A stretch of DNA of 7,980 nt from Candidatus Rokuibacteriota bacterium (lineage in GTDB: Bacteria > Methylomirabilota > Methylomirabilia > Rokubacteriales > JACPHL01), in assembly GCA_016188625.1 (NCBI GenBank), contig JACPHL010000119.1:1-7980 (forward strand). The letters run 5' to 3'. Shown here piece after piece: positions 42 to 7,616 of this stretch (positions are counted from its first letter, which is position 1; each line of letters starts with the position of its first letter). The translations under genes and the position numbers were made by a program. Under the pieces are notes generated by a model. The model saw only the letters and a program-made list of their open reading frames with translations, did no database searches and was not told the origin of the DNA.

Positions 42-1040
42 ATGCGCATCCGTTCCGTCAGGCCCACTTGGTTGGCTGCTGTCCTCTTGATCCTCCTCGG
101 GGGGTGCGGGCTGGACTCCCCGATGACCACCGTCCTGCCGAAGTCCGACCTCGGGCAGGAGATCCACGACCTCTTCATGAACATCGCCGGCTGGTCGCTC
201 TTCATCTTCGTGGTCGTCGAGGCGCTCCTGCTCTTCGTCATCTGGCGCTATCGGGACCGCCCCGGCCGGGCCGAGCCCAGGCCGATCCACGGCCACCTCG
301 GCCTCGAGCTGATCTGGACCCTCATCCCGGTGGTGATCGTCGTCTCCATCGCGGTCCCCACCATCGCCGTGGTCTTCAGGACCCACGCCCCGCCGCCGGC
401 GGAGGCCCTGAAGGTCGAGGTGGTCGGCCATCAGTGGTGGTGGGAGATCCGCTACCCGGACCTCGGGGTCAGGACGGCCAACGAGCTCCACCTCCCGGCC
501 GGCCGGCCGGTGCGCCTCGCCCTCACCTCGGCCGACGTCATCCACAGCTTCTGGGTCCCCCAGCTCGGCGGCAAGCGGGACCTGATCCCCGGCAAGGTCA
601 ACCACCTGATCTTCACGGTCGCCGCGCCGGGCGAGTACCCGGGTCAGTGCGCCGAGTTCTGCGGGGTCTCCCACGCCAACATGCGCCTCCGGGTGGTGGC
701 CCAGGTGCCCGCGGAGTTCGAGGGGTGGGCCGCGCGCCAGAAGGCCCCGCCGGCCCCGCCGACCGGCGCGGCCGCCGAGGGGCGGGAGGTCTTTCAGGCC
801 TCGGCCTGCGTGGCCTGTCACGCCATCCAGGGCGTCGCCGTCGGCGTGGTCGGGCCCGATCTCACCCACATGGGCAGCCGGAAGACCCTGGCGGGCGGAC
901 TGCTTCCCAACACGCCCGAGCAGATGAGCCGCTGGCTCGCCGACCCGCCGGCGGTCAAGCCCGGGAGCCGGATGCCGAAGCTCCCGCTCACCGACGAGCA
1001 GATCGCCGCCCTGGTCGCCTACCTCGAGAGCCTCCGATGA
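42..1040 (+). CDS. coxB: Cytochrome c oxidase subunit II with fused cytochrome c domain (caa3 type), lipoprotein
   Basis: Subunit II of a haem-copper oxidase. It receives electrons through a haem c and the binuclear CuA centre and passes them to subunit I. The 332-residue product begins with a lipoprotein signal whose lipobox LGGC puts the lipidated Cys at 22. Two membrane helices follow at about 48-68 and 88-112. The aromatic stretch HQWWWE (130-135) precedes the cupredoxin domain, whose CuA ligands are H168, C203, C207, H211 and M214 in the CxxxCxxxHxxM pattern. After a Pro/Ala linker, a class I cytochrome c domain carries CVACH (256-260) and a likely axial Met at M311. The fused haem c marks the caa3 subtype, in which the cytochrome c donor is tethered to the enzyme. 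Its stop overlaps the next gene's start by 4 nt (ATGA). The ATG at 42 is chosen because it gives the signal peptide; no clear ribosome binding site is seen. All expected metal ligands are present. Also called ctaC. Confidence 0.97.
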   Translation: MRIRSVRPTWLAAVLLILLGGCGLDSPMTTVLPKSDLGQEIHDLFMNIAGWSLFIFVVVEALLLFVIWRYRDRPGRAEPRPIHGHLGLELIWTLIPVVIVVSIAVPTIAVVFRTHAPPPAEALKVEVVGHQWWWEIRYPDLGVRTANELHLPAGRPVRLALTSADVIHSFWVPQLGGKRDLIPGKVNHLIFTVAAPGEYPGQCAEFCGVSHANMRLRVVAQVPAEFEGWAARQKAPPAPPTGAAAEGREVFQASACVACHAIQGVAVGVVGPDLTHMGSRKTLAGGLLPNTPEQMSRWLADPPAVKPGSRMPKLPLTDEQIAALVAYLESLR

Positions 1041-3385
1041 CCGGGGCGCGCGGGGTCTGGGGCTGGATCACGACCGTCGATCACAAGCGGATCGGCATCC
1101 TCTACGGGGTCACCGCCTTCGTCTTCTTCCTCGTGGGCGGCATCGAGGCCCTCGTGATCCGGCTCCAGCTCGCGCGGCCCGACAGCGCGGTGGTGAGCGC
1201 CGAGACCTTCAACCAGCTCTTCACCATGCACGGGACCACCATGATCTTCCTCGCGGTGATGCCCCTCGGCGCCGCCTTCTTCAACTACCTGATCCCGCTC
1301 ATGATCGGGGCGCGCGACGTCGCCTTCCCCCGCCTCAACGCGCTCTCGTACTGGGTCTTCCTCTCCGGGGGGCTCTTCCTCAACGCGAGCTTCCTGTTCG
1401 GCGCCGCCCCGAACGCCGGCTGGTTCGGCTACGCGAACCTGACCGCCAGGCAGTTCTCCCCGGGCCCCGCCATCGACTTCTGGCTGCTCGGCCTCCTGGT
1501 CCTCGGGGTCTCCTCCCTCATCGCGGGGTTCAACTTCATCGTGACGATCCTGAACATGCGGGCGCCCGGGATGACCTTCATGCGGCTCCCGGTCTTCGTC
1601 TGGATGACGCTGATCACCCAGTTCCTGATCGTCCTGGCCTTCCCGACCATCACCGTCGGCCTCTTCCTGCTCTTCTTCGACCGCTACCTCGGCACGGGCT
1701 TCTACGACCCCCTGGTCGGCGGGAACCCCCTCCTCTGGCAGCACCTCTTCTGGCTCTTCGGCCACCCGGAGGTCTACATCCTGATCCTCCCGGCCATGGG
1801 GATCGTCTCAGAGGTTCTCCCCACCTTCGCCCGGAAGCCGCTCTTCGGCTACCCCGTGGTCGTCTACTCGGGGATCCTGATCGGGTTCTTCGGGTTCGGG
1901 GTGTGGAGCCACCATATGTTCACGGTGGGTCTCGGGGCCGTCGCCGACGCCGCCTTCTCCCTGGCCACGATGCTGATCGGCATCCCCACCGGGGTGAAGA
2001 TCTTCAACTGGCTCGCCACGCTGTGGGGCGGCGCCATCCGGGCCCGGACGCCGCTGTACTTCGCGGTGGGGTTCATCGCCATGTTCCTCATGGGCGGGCT
2101 CTCGGGGATCATGCACGCCTCGCCGCCCGTGGACATGCAGCAGCAGGACTCCTACTTCGTCGTCGCCCACCTCCACTACGTCCTGGTCGGCGGGAGCCTC
2201 TTCGGCCTCTTCGCGGGGATCTACTACTGGTGGCCCAAGATGACGGGGCGGCTGCTCAGCGACCGGCTCGGCAAGCTGAACTTCTGGCTGCTCCTCGTCG
2301 GCTTCAACGCGACCTTCTTCCCGATGCACTTCCTCGGGCTCATGGGCATGCCCCGCCGCCTCTACACCTATTCGGGCGCCCTCGGCTGGGACTTCTGGAA
2401 TTTCGTGTCCACCGTCGGGGCGTTCCTCATCGCGCTCTCCGTCCTGGTCTTCATCGTTCCTGACCCCTGGGACGGGCGGACCCTGGAGTGGACGCTCCCC
2501 TCGCCGCCGCCGGTCCACAACTTCGAGGAGATCCCGACCGTGGCCCACCGGGACGAGCTCTGGGCGCGGAAGCGGCGCCGGCCGGCCGCGCCGCCCGCGC
2601 CCCGCGAGCCCGCACCTGTCCCCGCCCACGCGCCCCACGGCATCCACCTCCCCCCGCCCTCCATCTACCCGATCATCGTGGCGGGCGGGATCCTGCTCGT
2701 CGCCGTGGGGGCCCTGGCCCACCTGGCCGTCAGCGCCCTCGGCGGACTCCTCGTCGCGTACGGGATCTACCGCTGGGCCTTCGAGTACGGCGGCCCGGGG
2801 CGGGGCCACCCGGTCCCGCTCGAGGAGACCAGCCTCGGGCTCGATCACCGGAAGACCGGCTTCTGGGCCTTCCTGGGCTCCGAGTGCATGTTCTTCGCCT
2901 CCCTGATCGCCACCTACATGGCCTACAAGGGCAAGAGCCTGAGCGGCCCCTACCCCCACGAGATCCTCAACATCCCGCTGACCTCGATCAGCACCTTCGT
3001 CCTGCTGATGTCGAGCCTCCTGATGGTCCTGGCCCTGGCCGCGGTCCAGCGCGGTGACCGGCTCGGGGCGAAGCTCTGGCTCTTCGGGACGGCCTTCTTC
3101 GGGCTGATCTTCCTGGGCTTCCAGGCGTACGAGTTCATCGAGTTCGTCCACGAGGGCCTCACGCTCCAGGTCAACCTCTTCGGGGCCACCTTCTTCGTGC
3201 TCACGGGCTTCCACGGCGCCCACGTGACGGTCGGGGTGATCTGGCTCCTCTCGCTCTGGGTCCTGGCGCTCCGGGAGCGCCTCGGCCCCGCCGACGCCGT
3301 GCTGGTAGAGGTCGCGGGGCTCTACTGGCACTTCGTGGACATCGTCTGGATCGCGATCTTCACGCTGATCTACCTGATCCAGTAG
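1037..3385 (+). CDS. ctaD: Fused cytochrome c oxidase subunit I + III (CoxA-CoxC)
   Basis: Catalytic subunit I fused in frame to subunit III, 782 residues; the symbol covers the ctaD part and the rest is ctaE. Subunit I (about 1-500) holds the low-spin haem a ligands H65 and H380, the haem a3 ligand H378, and CuB ligands H243, H292 and H293, with Y247 as the expected His-Tyr crosslink partner in GHPEVY. D-channel residues D94, N83 and N101 lead to E245. K-channel residues are T318 and K321. E245 in GHPE places it with A1-type oxidases. A Pro/Arg-rich linker (about 488-540) joins a complete subunit III with about seven helices; E616 in LGSECMFF matches the conserved glutamate of that subunit. 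The same frame stays open upstream to 68, but that part is a shadow of coxB. The ATG at 1037 opens with the usual subunit I N-terminus (ITTVDHKRIG). Subunit I/III fusion is known from Thermus caa3 oxidase. No separate subunit III gene is present here. Confidence 0.96.
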   Translation: MTGARGVWGWITTVDHKRIGILYGVTAFVFFLVGGIEALVIRLQLARPDSAVVSAETFNQLFTMHGTTMIFLAVMPLGAAFFNYLIPLMIGARDVAFPRLNALSYWVFLSGGLFLNASFLFGAAPNAGWFGYANLTARQFSPGPAIDFWLLGLLVLGVSSLIAGFNFIVTILNMRAPGMTFMRLPVFVWMTLITQFLIVLAFPTITVGLFLLFFDRYLGTGFYDPLVGGNPLLWQHLFWLFGHPEVYILILPAMGIVSEVLPTFARKPLFGYPVVVYSGILIGFFGFGVWSHHMFTVGLGAVADAAFSLATMLIGIPTGVKIFNWLATLWGGAIRARTPLYFAVGFIAMFLMGGLSGIMHASPPVDMQQQDSYFVVAHLHYVLVGGSLFGLFAGIYYWWPKMTGRLLSDRLGKLNFWLLLVGFNATFFPMHFLGLMGMPRRLYTYSGALGWDFWNFVSTVGAFLIALSVLVFIVPDPWDGRTLEWTLPSPPPVHNFEEIPTVAHRDELWARKRRRPAAPPAPREPAPVPAHAPHGIHLPPPSIYPIIVAGGILLVAVGALAHLAVSALGGLLVAYGIYRWAFEYGGPGRGHPVPLEETSLGLDHRKTGFWAFLGSECMFFASLIATYMAYKGKSLSGPYPHEILNIPLTSISTFVLLMSSLLMVLALAAVQRGDRLGAKLWLFGTAFFGLIFLGFQAYEFIEFVHEGLTLQVNLFGATFFVLTGFHGAHVTVGVIWLLSLWVLALRERLGPADAVLVEVAGLYWHFVDIVWIAIFTLIYLIQ

Positions 3386-3394
3386 GGGACATTC

Positions 3395-3700
3395 ATGACC
3401 GAGCCCGCCCACGAGATCCACCCCCCGATCCGGGCGTACCTCGTGATCGCGGCGGTCCTGGCCGTGATCACGGCGGTCGAGGTGACGGTCTTCTACATCA
3501 CCTGGCTGGCCCGCTTCCTGGTCCCCATCCTGCTCGTCCTCTCCACGGCCAAGTTCGCCCTCGTCGTCATGTTCTTCATGCACCTCCGCTCCGACAGCCG
3601 GGTCTTCAGCGGGCTCTTCGCGGGCCCGCTCGCCATCGCCATCGCCATCGTCATGGTCCTGATGGCGCTCTTCGGGGCCTTCGTCGTCGGCCGGCCGTGA
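3395..3700 (+). CDS. ctaF: Cytochrome c oxidase subunit IV (prokaryotic small subunit)
   Basis: A 101-residue membrane protein with three predicted helices at about 14-35, 38-62 and 73-97. The segment KFALVVMFFMHLRSDS (53-68) is the hallmark of the bacterial subunit IV family (COX4_pro type), a small subunit that helps assembly or stability of aa3/caa3 oxidases and carries no cofactor. It begins 9 nt after the subunit I/III stop, with the purine run AGGGGA (3384-3389) placed as a ribosome binding site for the ATG at 3395. Position between the catalytic fusion and ctaG matches the Bacillus-like order ctaC-ctaD-ctaE-ctaF-ctaG. Also called coxD. Confidence 0.92.
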   Translation: MTEPAHEIHPPIRAYLVIAAVLAVITAVEVTVFYITWLARFLVPILLVLSTAKFALVVMFFMHLRSDSRVFSGLFAGPLAIAIAIVMVLMALFGAFVVGRP

Positions 3701-3713
3701 GAGGGTAGCGGAG

Positions 3714-4535
3714 ATGGAGTGGGGCCGCTGGGAGGTGCACCCCGAGGTCGGGCTGGGCCTTTCGCTCCTGGCCGCCGCCTACCTCCTCGGGGTGGGGCCC
3801 TTGCGCCGCCGCGGGGGGGCCGGGCGGCTGACCCCGGGCCACCCGATCGCCTTCCTCGGAGGGCTTGCCGTCACGTTCCTGGCGCTGACCGGACCCCTCC
3901 ACGACCTCGCCGACCGCTACCTCTTCAGCGCCCACATGGTGCAGCACCTCCTGCTCACCCTGGTGATCCCGCCCCTGCTCCTGGCGGGCACGCCCGGCTG
4001 GCTCCTCCGCCCGCTCCTCGCGGGCCGCATGCGGCTCGCCCGGCCGCTGGCCCGCGCCCCGGTGGCGTTCGCGGTCTACACCGTCGTCCTCGTGGCCTGG
4101 CACCTGCCGCTCCTCTACGAGGCGGCGATGCGGGATCATGGCCTCCACGTCGTCCAGCACCTCACCCTCATGGCGGCCGGGCTCTGGCTCTTCTGGCCCA
4201 TCCTGAGCCCGCTCCCCGAGCTGCCCCGCCTCCCGCCCCCGGCCCAGATGCTCTACCTCTTCCTCGCCGGGGTCCCGATGGTGCTGATCGCCGCGCCCAT
4301 CACGCTGGCGGATGAGGTCCTCTACCCCTTCTACGCCGGGGCGCCGCGCCTCTTCGGCCTCACGCCGCTCGGCGATCAGCGCGCCGGGGGCGTTATCATG
4401 TGGGTGCCGGGGACGCTGGTCTTCCTGATCGCCATCACCTTCGTCTTCTTCCGATGGGTCCGCGCGGAGGCCGAGCCCGAGGAGCCCTCGGCCCGGCTCG
4501 GCGCGCCCCGGGAGGACGGCCATGGAGCTCATTGA
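3714..4535 (+). CDS. ctaG: CtaG-type cytochrome c oxidase assembly factor (caa3_CtaG family)
   Basis: A 273-residue polytopic membrane protein with about six or seven hydrophobic segments. It resembles the caa3_CtaG family needed to make active caa3 oxidase in Bacillus subtilis. It is unrelated to the Cox11-type proteins that also carry the name CtaG. Family-like features are GPLHDLAD with H63, the SAHMVQHLLL motif (H74, H78), WHLPLLYEA (H130), HVVQHLTLMAAG (H145, H149) and the late motif DQRAGGVIMW from D221. The conserved histidines could hold copper or another metal, but that is inference. The start at 3714 follows a GAGGG ribosome binding site at 3701-3705, 13 nt after the subunit IV stop. 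The C-terminal tail is charged and ends GHGAH. Its last 14 nt overlap the start of the next gene, so downstream translation is probably coupled to this one. Confidence 0.92.
   Translation: MEWGRWEVHPEVGLGLSLLAAAYLLGVGPLRRRGGAGRLTPGHPIAFLGGLAVTFLALTGPLHDLADRYLFSAHMVQHLLLTLVIPPLLLAGTPGWLLRPLLAGRMRLARPLARAPVAFAVYTVVLVAWHLPLLYEAAMRDHGLHVVQHLTLMAAGLWLFWPILSPLPELPRLPPPAQMLYLFLAGVPMVLIAAPITLADEVLYPFYAGAPRLFGLTPLGDQRAGGVIMWVPGTLVFLIAITFVFFRWVRAEAEPEEPSARLGAPREDGHGAH
4511..4516 (+). promoter_or_regulatory. Ribosome binding site for the triplicated membrane protein
   Basis: GGAGGA lies inside the 3' end of ctaG, five bases before the ATG at 4522. This near-perfect Shine-Dalgarno sequence fixes that start and shows the 14-nt gene overlap is real rather than an artefact of start choice. 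Ribosomes ending ctaG at 4535 would be well placed to reinitiate here. Confidence 0.75.
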
Positions 4536-5964
4536 CCGCCGCCTGATCCGCGAAGGGATCGTGGCCGGGGTGATCGGGGCCGCGCTCGTGGCCCTCTGGT
4601 TCCTCCTGGTGGACGCCCTCCAGGGCCAGCCCTTCCGCACCCCGGCCCTGCTCGGGGCCGCGGTGTTCCAGGGGCTGCGCGAGCCCACCGAGGCCGTGGC
4701 CATCACGGCGGGCGCGGTGGCGGGGTACAGCGTGCTCCACGGCCTCGCCTTCATCGCCTTCGGGATCCTCTGCGCGACCCTGATCGTCAGCGCCGAGCGC
4801 GAGCCCGCCATGCTCCTGGCCTTCATCGCCCTCTTCGCCTGCTTCTCGGTCTTCTTCCTCGGGCTCCTCTGGGTCCTGGCGGCGTGGCTCCTGGGCGCCC
4901 TCCCGTGGTGGGAGATCCTCGTCGCCAACCTCCTGGCCGCCGGGGGGATGCTCGCCTACTTCTTCCTCGGCCACCGGGCCCTGGGCCGGGCCCTGCTGGG
5001 GTCCCTGGCGGGCGTCCTCCCGGAAGGGGTCGTGGCCGGGCTGCTCGGGGCGGCCATCGTCGCGGCCTGGTTCCTGATCGTCGATACCCTTCAGGGCCGG
5101 CCGTTCTTCACCCCCGCGCTCCTCGGGGCCGCCGTGTTCGAGGGGCTCCAGGATCCCGCGCTCCTCCAGATGAGCCTCGGCGTGATCCTCGGCTACACCG
5201 TCCTGCACGGGGCCGCCTTCGTCGCCTTCGGGATCCTCTGCGCGATCCTGATCGTCGCCGCGGAGCGCGAGCCGGGGCTCGCCTGGGCCTTCCTGGCGCT
5301 GCTGGTCTCCTTCGAGGTCTTCTTCCTGGCCCTGGACCGGCTCTTCGCCGAGTCTGTCCTCGGCGCCCTGGTCTGGTGGGCGATCCTCGTCGGGAACCTC
5401 CTGGCCGCGGGCGGGATGCTGGCCTACTTCTTCCTCCGGCATCGGGCGCTGGGCCGGGCCCTGCTGGGGGATTGGGCGGGGGTGATCCGCGAGGGGATCG
5501 TGGCCGGGCTGCTCGGGGCGTCCATCGTGGCGGTCTGGTTCCTCGCCTACGACGCCTTCAAGGGGCAGCCCCTCCGGACCCCCGCGCTCCTCGGGGCCGC
5601 CGTCTTCCAGGGGCTTACCGACCCCGCGGCCGTCGAGATCAGCCTCGGGGTGATCCTGGGCTACACCGTCCTGCATGGCCTGGCCTTCGCGGTCTTCGGG
5701 ATGGTGGTGGCCGTGCTGCTGGTGGCCGCGGAGCGCCAGCCGGTCCTGCTCCTGGGCCTCTTCATGCTCTTGGCGGCCTTCGAGGTCTTCTTCTTCGGCG
5801 TCGTCATGATCTTCGGCCAATCGCTCGTGGGCGCCCTGCTCTGGTGGGAGATCTTCGTGGCCAACCTGCTGGCCCTGGCGGGGATGCTGCTGTACTTCTT
5901 CCTCGGCCACCGGGCCCTGGGGCGGCGGCTCATGGAGACCTGGCCCCCCCGCGAGGAGGCGTGA
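4522..5964 (+). CDS. Unrecognised 12-helix membrane protein made of three tandem 4-helix repeats
   Basis: I do not recognise this family. The 480-residue product consists of three successive copies of one unit (residues about 8-164, 165-320 and 321-474), with a period of 156-157 residues. Each copy has four predicted helices, giving about twelve in all and no signal peptide. Landmarks recur in each unit: EG(I/V)VAG (E11/E168/E324), an Asp at the end of helix 1 (D31/D188/D344), TPALLGAAVF (from T40/T197/T353), GYxVLHG in helix 2 (H73/H229/H385), AERxP (E92/E248/E404), WWxI with a following Asn (W129/W285/W441; N136/N292/N448) and HRALGR after helix 4 (H151/H307/H463). The repeated polar residues inside helices suggest a transport, channel or cofactor-handling role, but none is shown. 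It overlaps ctaG by 14 nt and has a strong ribosome binding site, so it probably belongs to the oxidase operon. A role in oxidase assembly or copper/haem supply is conceivable; an unrelated membrane protein carried by the operon is equally possible. Confidence 0.9.
   Translation: MELIDRRLIREGIVAGVIGAALVALWFLLVDALQGQPFRTPALLGAAVFQGLREPTEAVAITAGAVAGYSVLHGLAFIAFGILCATLIVSAEREPAMLLAFIALFACFSVFFLGLLWVLAAWLLGALPWWEILVANLLAAGGMLAYFFLGHRALGRALLGSLAGVLPEGVVAGLLGAAIVAAWFLIVDTLQGRPFFTPALLGAAVFEGLQDPALLQMSLGVILGYTVLHGAAFVAFGILCAILIVAAEREPGLAWAFLALLVSFEVFFLALDRLFAESVLGALVWWAILVGNLLAAGGMLAYFFLRHRALGRALLGDWAGVIREGIVAGLLGASIVAVWFLAYDAFKGQPLRTPALLGAAVFQGLTDPAAVEISLGVILGYTVLHGLAFAVFGMVVAVLLVAAERQPVLLLGLFMLLAAFEVFFFGVVMIFGQSLVGALLWWEIFVANLLALAGMLLYFFLGHRALGRRLMETWPPREEA
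4543..5013 (+). repeat. Coding repeat unit 1 of 3 (about 157 codons)
   Basis: First copy of the tandem unit. It has one extra residue relative to the others between the helix 1 region and H73, and it is the most divergent in protein sequence (REPTEAVAIT where the others have a DPA-type stretch). It lacks the intramembrane Glu found in helix 3 of the other two copies, having S109 instead. Stretches of DNA identity to unit 2 remain, for example a 21-nt match between 4981-5001 and 5449-5469. Confidence 0.85.
5014..5481 (+). repeat. Coding repeat unit 2 of 3 (156 codons)
   Basis: Second copy, 468 nt. It shares exact in-register DNA matches with unit 3, including 26 nt (5110-5135 against 5578-5603) and 22 nt (5031-5052 against 5499-5520), each offset by exactly 468 nt. 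Helix 3 carries E265 in FEVFF. Confidence 0.85.
5482..5943 (+). repeat. Coding repeat unit 3 of 3 (about 154 codons)
   Basis: Third copy, ending at the HRALGRRLMETW segment. Helix 3 carries E421 in FEVFF, matching unit 2. AERQP (403-407) replaces the AEREP of the other two copies. A short charged tail (PPREEA) follows the repeat. Confidence 0.85.
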
Positions 5965-6021: not shown

Positions 6022-6384
6022 GTGATCCCGCAGTGGGCGTGGGGGCTGCTTCAGCCGTACGTCCGGAAGCGGCTCGAGGCCCGCCGAGCGGCCCCGACGC
6101 CGGCGGCCATCCTGGACGAGCTGGGGGCGATCTGGCCCGGGCTCTCCGTCGTCCTCATGGTGCAGGAGCCGTGGATGTCCACCATCCGCTTCAAGCGCCT
6201 CGCGCGCCTTCAGGCGGGGGAGATGCGGCCGTTCCTCGAGGCGCCCGAGGGGTACCTCGCCGAGCGCTTCGGCGGGGGGAAGTTCAAGGTCAACTTCCAC
6301 CACGGGATGCACTTCGTGGCCACCAAGAACTTCAAGCCCGCCGGGCCGCCCCGCTGGCAGGACTTCCCCGAGCTGGAGGAGTGA
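6022..6384 (+). CDS. Small hypothetical protein, GTG start
   Basis: A 120-residue protein I do not recognise. It has no signal peptide and no clear transmembrane helix. The N-terminus is basic and aromatic (WAWGLLQPYVRKRLEARR), followed by a probable helix (28-40) and a hydrophobic strand (LSVVLMVQEPW). The C-terminal third, GGGKFKVNFHHGMHFVATKN (85-104), looks like a beta-hairpin. It loosely recalls the GGGxYxVxxxxxG segments of small phage-associated proteins, but this is only an impression. GTG at 6022 is the only usable start, because the frame has no ATG, GTG or TTG between the preceding stop at 5962-5964 and this codon. No convincing ribosome binding site is seen. Codon use matches the neighbours and the frame is uninterrupted, which favours a real gene. 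It begins 57 nt after the triplicated membrane protein and could be read from the same transcript. Confidence 0.65.
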   Translation: MIPQWAWGLLQPYVRKRLEARRAAPTPAAILDELGAIWPGLSVVLMVQEPWMSTIRFKRLARLQAGEMRPFLEAPEGYLAERFGGGKFKVNFHHGMHFVATKNFKPAGPPRWQDFPELEE

Positions 6385-6569: not shown

Positions 6570-7382
6570 TCACCGTCGTGCCGTCTGCCCGCGGGCGGCT
6601 CCCCCGAGGAGACCGGCGTACCCGGCCTCGTCGAGGAACTGCCGGATGCTGGCCAGGGGGATCACATAGGTCTCCCCGGGGACGGGCACAGAGATGTACC
6701 GGGGCGAGGTCGCGTCGCCCAGCGTCACCCTGGCCGTCCCGTACCCCTCCACGAGCCCGATCAGGCTTCCGGTGCGCATCTCGTAGACACCGCCCCCGCT
6801 GGCGCCGTAGCTCACGGAGGCGTCCACCATGAGCTTCGGGGGTAGCCCCTTGTCTCCGGGCCCGTCCGGGTTGATCTGGCTCACGATACCGCTGACCAGC
6901 GTCATGTTGCGGCCCCAGGGGAACGCAATGACCCAGATCGCCTCGCCCAGCGCCGTCGGCCGCAACCCCGGCCGGGCCGCGACGCACCGGGCGGTCTGGG
7001 CGCGGAGGAGGGCGAGGTCCAGCCTGTCGGTCTCGCGCTCGGCGAGGACGGTGGCGGGCACCTTGGTTCCGGCGCCCCGGTGCCGGTCGAACAGGACGTA
7101 GATCTCCTCCAGACCGGACAGGCGGTTGACCGTGTGACCGCTCGTGAGGACGAAGCACTCGCTCCCCTGGGCGGACGGCCGCGCGGCGATCACGACGCCG
7201 GACGCGCTCCGGAAGCGTGTGCCGTCCCGTTCGAGGACGACCTGGACGGAGGAGGGCAGGATCGCCTCGAGGATCTGCTCGCGCGTAGGCTCCGCGAACC
7301 GGCGGGTCGTGCACCCGGTCACGACCGCGAGGAGCAGCGCGCCCGCGGCCAGGCGTGGCACCAGGTGACGTCCCTTACGCAT
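6570..7382 (-). CDS. Predicted lipoprotein serine protease (trypsin-like fold, no PDZ domain)
   Basis: A 270-residue trypsin-fold peptidase. The signal peptide MRKGRHLVPRLAAGALLLAV is followed by the lipobox VTGC, giving lipid-anchored C24. The catalytic triad is visible: H83 in VLTSGHTV, D122 in RLDLALL, and S195 in YGASGGGVY. The strand SASGVVIA before the His matches the GxGVI segment common in HtrA-like enzymes. No PDZ domain follows; the protein ends soon after the protease core. Two Cys remain after the lipobox (C76 and C133). A longer frame opens at 7592, but the ATG at 7382 gives the signal peptide, and the 70 extra residues resemble no domain. Its ribosome binding site is weak. It probably acts in the periplasm or at the outer membrane on misfolded or specific substrates; the target is unknown. 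It is divergent from the glycine-zipper lipoprotein gene, which is also envelope-directed. Confidence 0.85.
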   Translation of the reverse strand: MRKGRHLVPRLAAGALLLAVVTGCTTRRFAEPTREQILEAILPSSVQVVLERDGTRFRSASGVVIAARPSAQGSECFVLTSGHTVNRLSGLEEIYVLFDRHRGAGTKVPATVLAERETDRLDLALLRAQTARCVAARPGLRPTALGEAIWVIAFPWGRNMTLVSGIVSQINPDGPGDKGLPPKLMVDASVSYGASGGGVYEMRTGSLIGLVEGYGTARVTLGDATSPRYISVPVPGETYVIPLASIRQFLDEAGYAGLLGGAARGQTARR

Positions 7383-7573
7383 CGGCCTGATGGTAATGCG
7401 GGCGAAGCGGATGCGCAAGGAGTTTTCTGCCCCGGGCAGGAGGGGCCCCCTGGAACCCGTGCAACTTTTCCCGGCTTCCGGGTAGTCGTTACACCCCCCG
7501 CGTCCAGCCGGGGACGCTTTGCCTGCGGCTCCCACACCTCGGCGATCCGAGTCAAGCCAAGGAAATCGACAAA

Positions 7574-7586
7574 GATCAAAACGTTT
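7574..7586 (+). promoter_or_regulatory. Possible IHF-binding core
   Basis: ATCAA followed by four bases and TT (7575-7585) matches the central part of the IHF consensus WATCAANNNNTTR, but both flanking positions (7574 and 7586) are mismatches. It lies in an A-rich patch unusual for this window, about 60-70 nt upstream of the expected sigma-54 transcription start. That is where IHF often bends DNA between an activator site and the promoter. Short motifs of this kind also occur by chance. Confidence 0.3.
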
Positions 7587-7616
7587 CCGCATGGGCGCGA
7601 TACCGATGGGCAGCCG

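Follow-up and report, generated by a model that had tools for sequence, protein, structure and literature searches.

Outside model bacteria, little of the assembly of aa3-type oxidases has been mapped. The locus described here encodes a membrane protein whose gene overlaps the last gene of a caa3 oxidase operon, and the question is what role this protein plays. The window, that is, the whole stretch of 7,980 nucleotides that was analysed, carries this operon together with a gene for a 480-aa protein built from three similar units. Judged from its genomic context, the protein would probably be a helper or partner, so far undescribed, of the oxygen-consuming respiratory enzyme.

The three-unit protein and its operon

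The genes upstream of the unit gene, assigned by Pfam or by homology, follow the order coxB, coxA/coxC fusion, coxD and ctaG. The features of the locus are as follows.

42..1040, + strand: coxB, oxidase subunit II with a C-terminal cytochrome c (caa3 type); Pfam COX2, COX2_TM, Cytochrom_C
1037..3385, + strand: coxA-coxC fusion, subunits I and III, 782 aa; reading frame and homologues in syntenic operons
3395..3700, + strand: coxD, subunit IV; Pfam COX4_pro, 2.2e-10
3714..4535, + strand: ctaG, caa3 assembly factor; Pfam Caa3_CtaG, 4e-58
4510..4515, + strand: GGGAGG ribosome binding site within the end of ctaG; sequence, with a comparable G-rich stretch in relatives
4522..4535, + strand: 14-nt overlap of the ctaG stop and the unit-gene start; the same in all six operons
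4522..5964, + strand: three-unit membrane protein, 480 aa; reading frame, repeats, hydropathy, HMM units
4540..4989, + strand: unit 1, residues 7-156; HMM domain, 210.7 bits
5014..5457, + strand: unit 2, residues 165-312; HMM domain, 206.8 bits; predicted fold with pLDDT 88.6
5479..5925, + strand: unit 3, residues 320-468; HMM domain, 209.5 bits

The open reading frame at 4522-5964 (+), with a GC3 of 97%, is a real gene. Its 480-aa product repeats one unit of about 148 residues three times in register, at a spacing of 156 residues, and hydropathy analysis gave four helices per unit and twelve in total. When the protein was compared with itself, 171 of 324 positions (53%) were identical at an offset of 156 and 39% at an offset of 312, while the best of 2000 composition shuffles reached 17% identity. 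The triplicated four-helix architecture proposed in the initial annotation is thus confirmed, and the motifs it had listed for each unit, namely the membrane histidine in GY[ST]VLHG, the TPALLGAAVF stretch and a Trp pair followed by Asn, are present in all three.

The junction with ctaG, which had been read from the same sequence as a 14-nt overlap with a ribosome binding site, also holds beyond the window. The unit-gene ATG lies at 4522 and ctaG ends at 4535, and an identical overlap was found in the five relatives with a readable junction (L032-L035 and L037), so that it is kept in six of six operons; a G-rich, Shine-Dalgarno-like stretch precedes the ATG in all five relatives. In a seventh copy of the three-unit type (L036) the gene is cut by the contig end, with two units visible and with the same downstream genes as in L033 and L035. 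The CtaG proteins linked to three-unit genes form one clade, and so do the CoxA proteins.

Other features of the neighbourhood were recorded. The subunit I and III genes also appear fused in several relatives, and a coxA/coxC fusion is a feature of some known caa3 oxidases. The unit gene is followed by a 120-aa open reading frame with coding-like GC3 (6022-6384), which matched nothing in Pfam and for which a search of the syntenic loci gave no homologue. A trypsin-like serine protease gene (Trypsin_2) lies at 6570-7592 on the opposite strand (-). A DegP-like protease occurs upstream of many one-unit genes in Gemmatimonadota, perhaps by chance.

An unnamed four-helix family with near-invariant polar residues

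The initial annotation could assign the protein to no known family, and the searches bear this out. The 480-aa protein had no credible Pfam, NCBIfam or PDB-sequence match, and scans of Pfam and NCBIfam with 68 units from the window's relatives and 20 mostly Gemmatimonadota units returned scattered weak matches only; those to MCU (0.003, in 3 of 68 units) and DsbD_TM (0.009, in 2 of 20 units) were rejected as noise. The predicted unit likewise had no credible match among PDB folds (Foldseek best E 0.99; VIA-align best Z 5.6, with matches spread over unrelated bundles) or, by Foldseek, in viral libraries. Plasmids gave no match, and no paper describing the unit family was found in the open-access literature. 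The family is therefore unnamed in the libraries searched (Pfam, NCBIfam and PDB).

Three known families come nearest in some respect. Caa3_CtaG (PF09678), the CuB-site assembly factor of caa3 oxidases, is also a membrane protein, and its gene closes the operon and overlaps the unit gene; however, the two genes stand side by side, and ctaG matches this family at 4e-58 while the 480-aa protein does not match it. CtaM/DUF420 (PF04238), a four-helix COX assembly factor, resembles the unit in having four transmembrane helices and a conserved His, but is a separate gene in the same genomes, the window's own included. No kinship with it was found: there was no Pfam match, and the hhalign probability was 0.9%. 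DUF6789 (PF20587), a small membrane family of unknown function, shares a similar size, a glycine-rich first helix and one conserved mid-sequence His; it gave no Pfam match and a non-significant hhalign probability of 1.9%. Because the DUF6789 alignment is shallow, a very distant tie between the two could still exist.

Conservation was counted in 204 non-redundant units. Asp24 is present in all 204, His65 and Gly73 in 203, Thr33, Pro34, Gly5 and Gly9 in 99-100%, Asn128 in 98% and Trp19/Phe20 in 96%, and the three units of the window keep these residues. An AlphaFold model of a single unit, built from a 68-sequence alignment, has a pLDDT of 88.6 and consists of four long helices with a short helix over TPALLG. 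The full-length model (pLDDT 66, pTM 0.54) is too poor for the arrangement of the three units. Fifteen Lys/Arg residues fall in the N-terminal, even-numbered and C-terminal loops versus five in the other loops, which by the positive-inside rule suggests that both ends of each unit are cytoplasmic and that all units have the same, parallel orientation. Such a topology would place the Asp, Thr-Pro, His and Asn residues in the periplasmic half of the membrane or close to it, where they could form a ligand pocket. This set would not make a typical copper site, nor would one invariant His make a bis-His heme site.

Distribution of the family and its linkage to oxidase genes

Searches of relatives yielded proteins of one, two and three units, single-copy homologues among them. 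A search of 99 genomes with the window protein found the family in 59, mostly of the window's own order, in which the named matching records are Candidatus Rokubacteria. It is also present in 97 of 150 sampled Gemmatimonadota genomes, and is rare in Proteobacteria/Myxococcota. One- and two-unit forms are far commoner than the three-unit form, of which all examples seen belong to one small Rokubacteria clade and follow coxB-coxA/C-coxD-ctaG wherever the contig permitted a check. The idea of a pseudo-threefold assembly, raised by the initial annotation, is consequently not supported as a general design, and the odd number of repeats seems to be an elaboration peculiar to one lineage and not a design constraint.

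In a tree of the units, units 1, 2 and 3 of the triple cluster by position across species, with the unit-1 and unit-2 sets together and the unit-3 set apart. This positional grouping fits a single origin of the triple, before the three-unit clade split. The two-unit proteins of Gemmatimonadota appear to stem from a duplication of their own, and their first unit is divergent. The common Rokubacteria two-unit gene occurs in none of the seven genomes with a three-unit gene, and although these genomes are incomplete, the pattern is suggestive of complementarity; one of the three-unit genomes (G039) has another two-unit gene, beside a second cox operon. At two loci (L133; G103:C148) a one-unit gene stands directly beside a two-unit gene, as an unfused three-unit set. 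The units of three metagenome-assembled genomes labelled Gammaproteobacteria (L118, L123 and L127) are almost the same as in Gemmatimonadetes L121 and L124; these labels are therefore probably wrong and the genomes of BD2-11 type Gemmatimonadota.

The linkage to oxidase genes was assessed in Gemmatimonadota with 80 unit loci and their 9-kb flanks, against 20 control stretches from the same genomes. To avoid loci selected by pattern, the 80 were taken from a whole-genome search, of which they are the best-scoring genes and not a random draw. coxA lies within 9 kb of 50 of these 80 unit genes versus none of the 20 controls, and a cox or cta gene near 53 versus none. The remaining 27 loci, several of them close to contig ends, have no cox or cta gene in reach; roughly one in three Gemmatimonadota copies in the sample is unlinked, in unrelated gene neighbourhoods. 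Gene orders and orientations vary, both here and among loci found by a scan of genome contigs, with unit genes convergent with ctaG, after coxD, after ctaB, before coxB (L110) or between two different cox operons (L219 and L225), and the neighbouring oxidases are of two distinct types.

The association extends to other groups. Among Proteobacteria/Myxococcota loci, ctaG is followed on the same strand by a two-unit gene. The two are adjacent at L130, whose phylum has the family in 4 of 198 genomes, and are separated by other sequence at L134, L291 and L292. The interval holds a polytopic membrane protein frame on the opposite strand in L291 (10405-11775) and L292 (4910-6313). A separate Rokubacteria cox operon also has an adjacent unit gene. 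The common Rokubacteria two-unit form and most one-unit forms were not found near oxidase genes and have unrelated neighbours, and 12 of 12 related Rokubacteria cox-ctaG operons had no unit gene within reach. Some copies without coxA nearby have other neighbours: at L188 and L189 the unit gene is beside ctaB, and at L206, L207 and L210 an unlinked two-unit gene is arranged divergently with the gene of a heavy-metal P-type ATPase that has an HMA domain.

On the unit tree, many forks of which are weak, there are at least 14 switches between linkage and its absence, which makes it unlikely that the linkage is one inherited accident. The tie to the oxidase, claimed at first for one operon, is therefore recurrent: homologues lie near heme-copper oxidase genes in Gemmatimonadota and in other phyla, a conserved but not universal linkage. 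The outcome that the initial annotation had named as refuting its view, an absence of homologues from the vicinity of oxidase genes, was thus not what was observed. The oxidase connection of the family is well supported by comparative genomics, and the linkage is not obligatory.

A SURF1 search that works in control genomes gave no match in any of 45 Rokubacteriales genomes; ctaG and cox operons are common in these 45. DUF420/CtaM is present in 35 of the 45, the window's genome included. It is present in G037 and G039 and was not found in G025, G028 and G033. A role of the unit family as a general CtaM replacement was rejected, since DUF420 occurs in the window's own genome and in G037 and G039.

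Possible roles in oxidase maturation

The chances that the three-unit protein, as a member of this family, has an accessory or biogenesis role for oxidases of the aa3/caa3 type appear evenly balanced, and we favour this role over the others considered. It is suggested by the ctaG overlap kept in six of six operons, by coxA near 50 of 80 unit genes versus none of 20 controls, and by an adjacency that survives rearrangement, involves two oxidase types and shows at least 14 label changes. The ctaB gene or metal P-type ATPase adjoining some copies without coxA, the lack of a SURF1 match in 45 of 45 Rokubacteriales genomes, and the conservation of Asp24 (204/204) and His65 (203/204) point the same way. 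Against it stand the unlinked main Rokubacteria two-unit and most one-unit forms, and the 12 of 12 cox-ctaG operons with no unit gene in reach. Several arrangements are convergent and thus not co-transcribed, and proximity is no proof of function. The invariant residues are atypical for copper or bis-His heme, and DUF420/CtaM is already in the window's genome.

Much of the same evidence bears on the other explanations. The protein could instead be no assembly factor but a stoichiometric subunit, accessory to the oxidase or to an oxidase supercomplex, yet this seems unlikely. The unit gene directly follows coxD in many operons and overlaps the last gene of the oxidase operon in the window, and parallel repeated units would suit a peripheral scaffold. 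Core subunits, however, show neither the variation from one to three units per chain nor the many convergent or unlinked copies, and the strict conservation of Asp, His and Asn suggests more than packing. Still less probable is a transporter or channel, a small one, for a metal ion, proton, lipid, heme precursor or other item that the oxidase requires or produces. Twelve helices, invariant acidic and His positions within the membrane and the metal P-type ATPase beside three copies would suit it; the single-unit forms, however, have four helices only, and no credible match to a transporter fold or family was found. We give the same low probability to a general membrane protein, concerned for instance with stress or lipids, that often neighbours cox operons without any functional tie to them. 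The unlinked third of sampled Gemmatimonadota copies and nearly all one- and two-unit copies of Rokubacteria agree with such a protein, but a linkage of 50 of 80 versus 0 of 20, with two oxidase types and in several phyla, persists through rearrangement and is joined by a conserved ctaG overlap.

For an accessory or biogenesis factor, we infer from the gene arrangement and charge distribution that the unit protein would be made together with CtaG through translational coupling, and that each unit would have its two ends in the cytoplasm and its near-invariant Asp, Thr-Pro, His and Asn in or close to the periplasmic half of the membrane. The units would stand parallel, with one, two or three of them fused per chain. 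More speculatively, these residues may line a polar pocket for handling a cofactor or for contact with the oxidase core while it matures. Only tentatively do we propose that such modular factors, of one to three units each with its near-invariant periplasmic Asp/Thr-Pro/His/Asn set, mature aa3/caa3 oxidases in Gemmatimonadota and in Rokubacteria, the latter without detectable SURF1.

Gemmatimonadota and Rokubacteria are abundant soil and groundwater phyla, and they may lack some textbook assembly factors, as the 45 Rokubacteriales genomes in which SURF1 was not found illustrate. The unit family, widespread and unnamed, with near-invariant polar residues and a repeated linkage to oxidases, offers a concrete gene for a genetic test.
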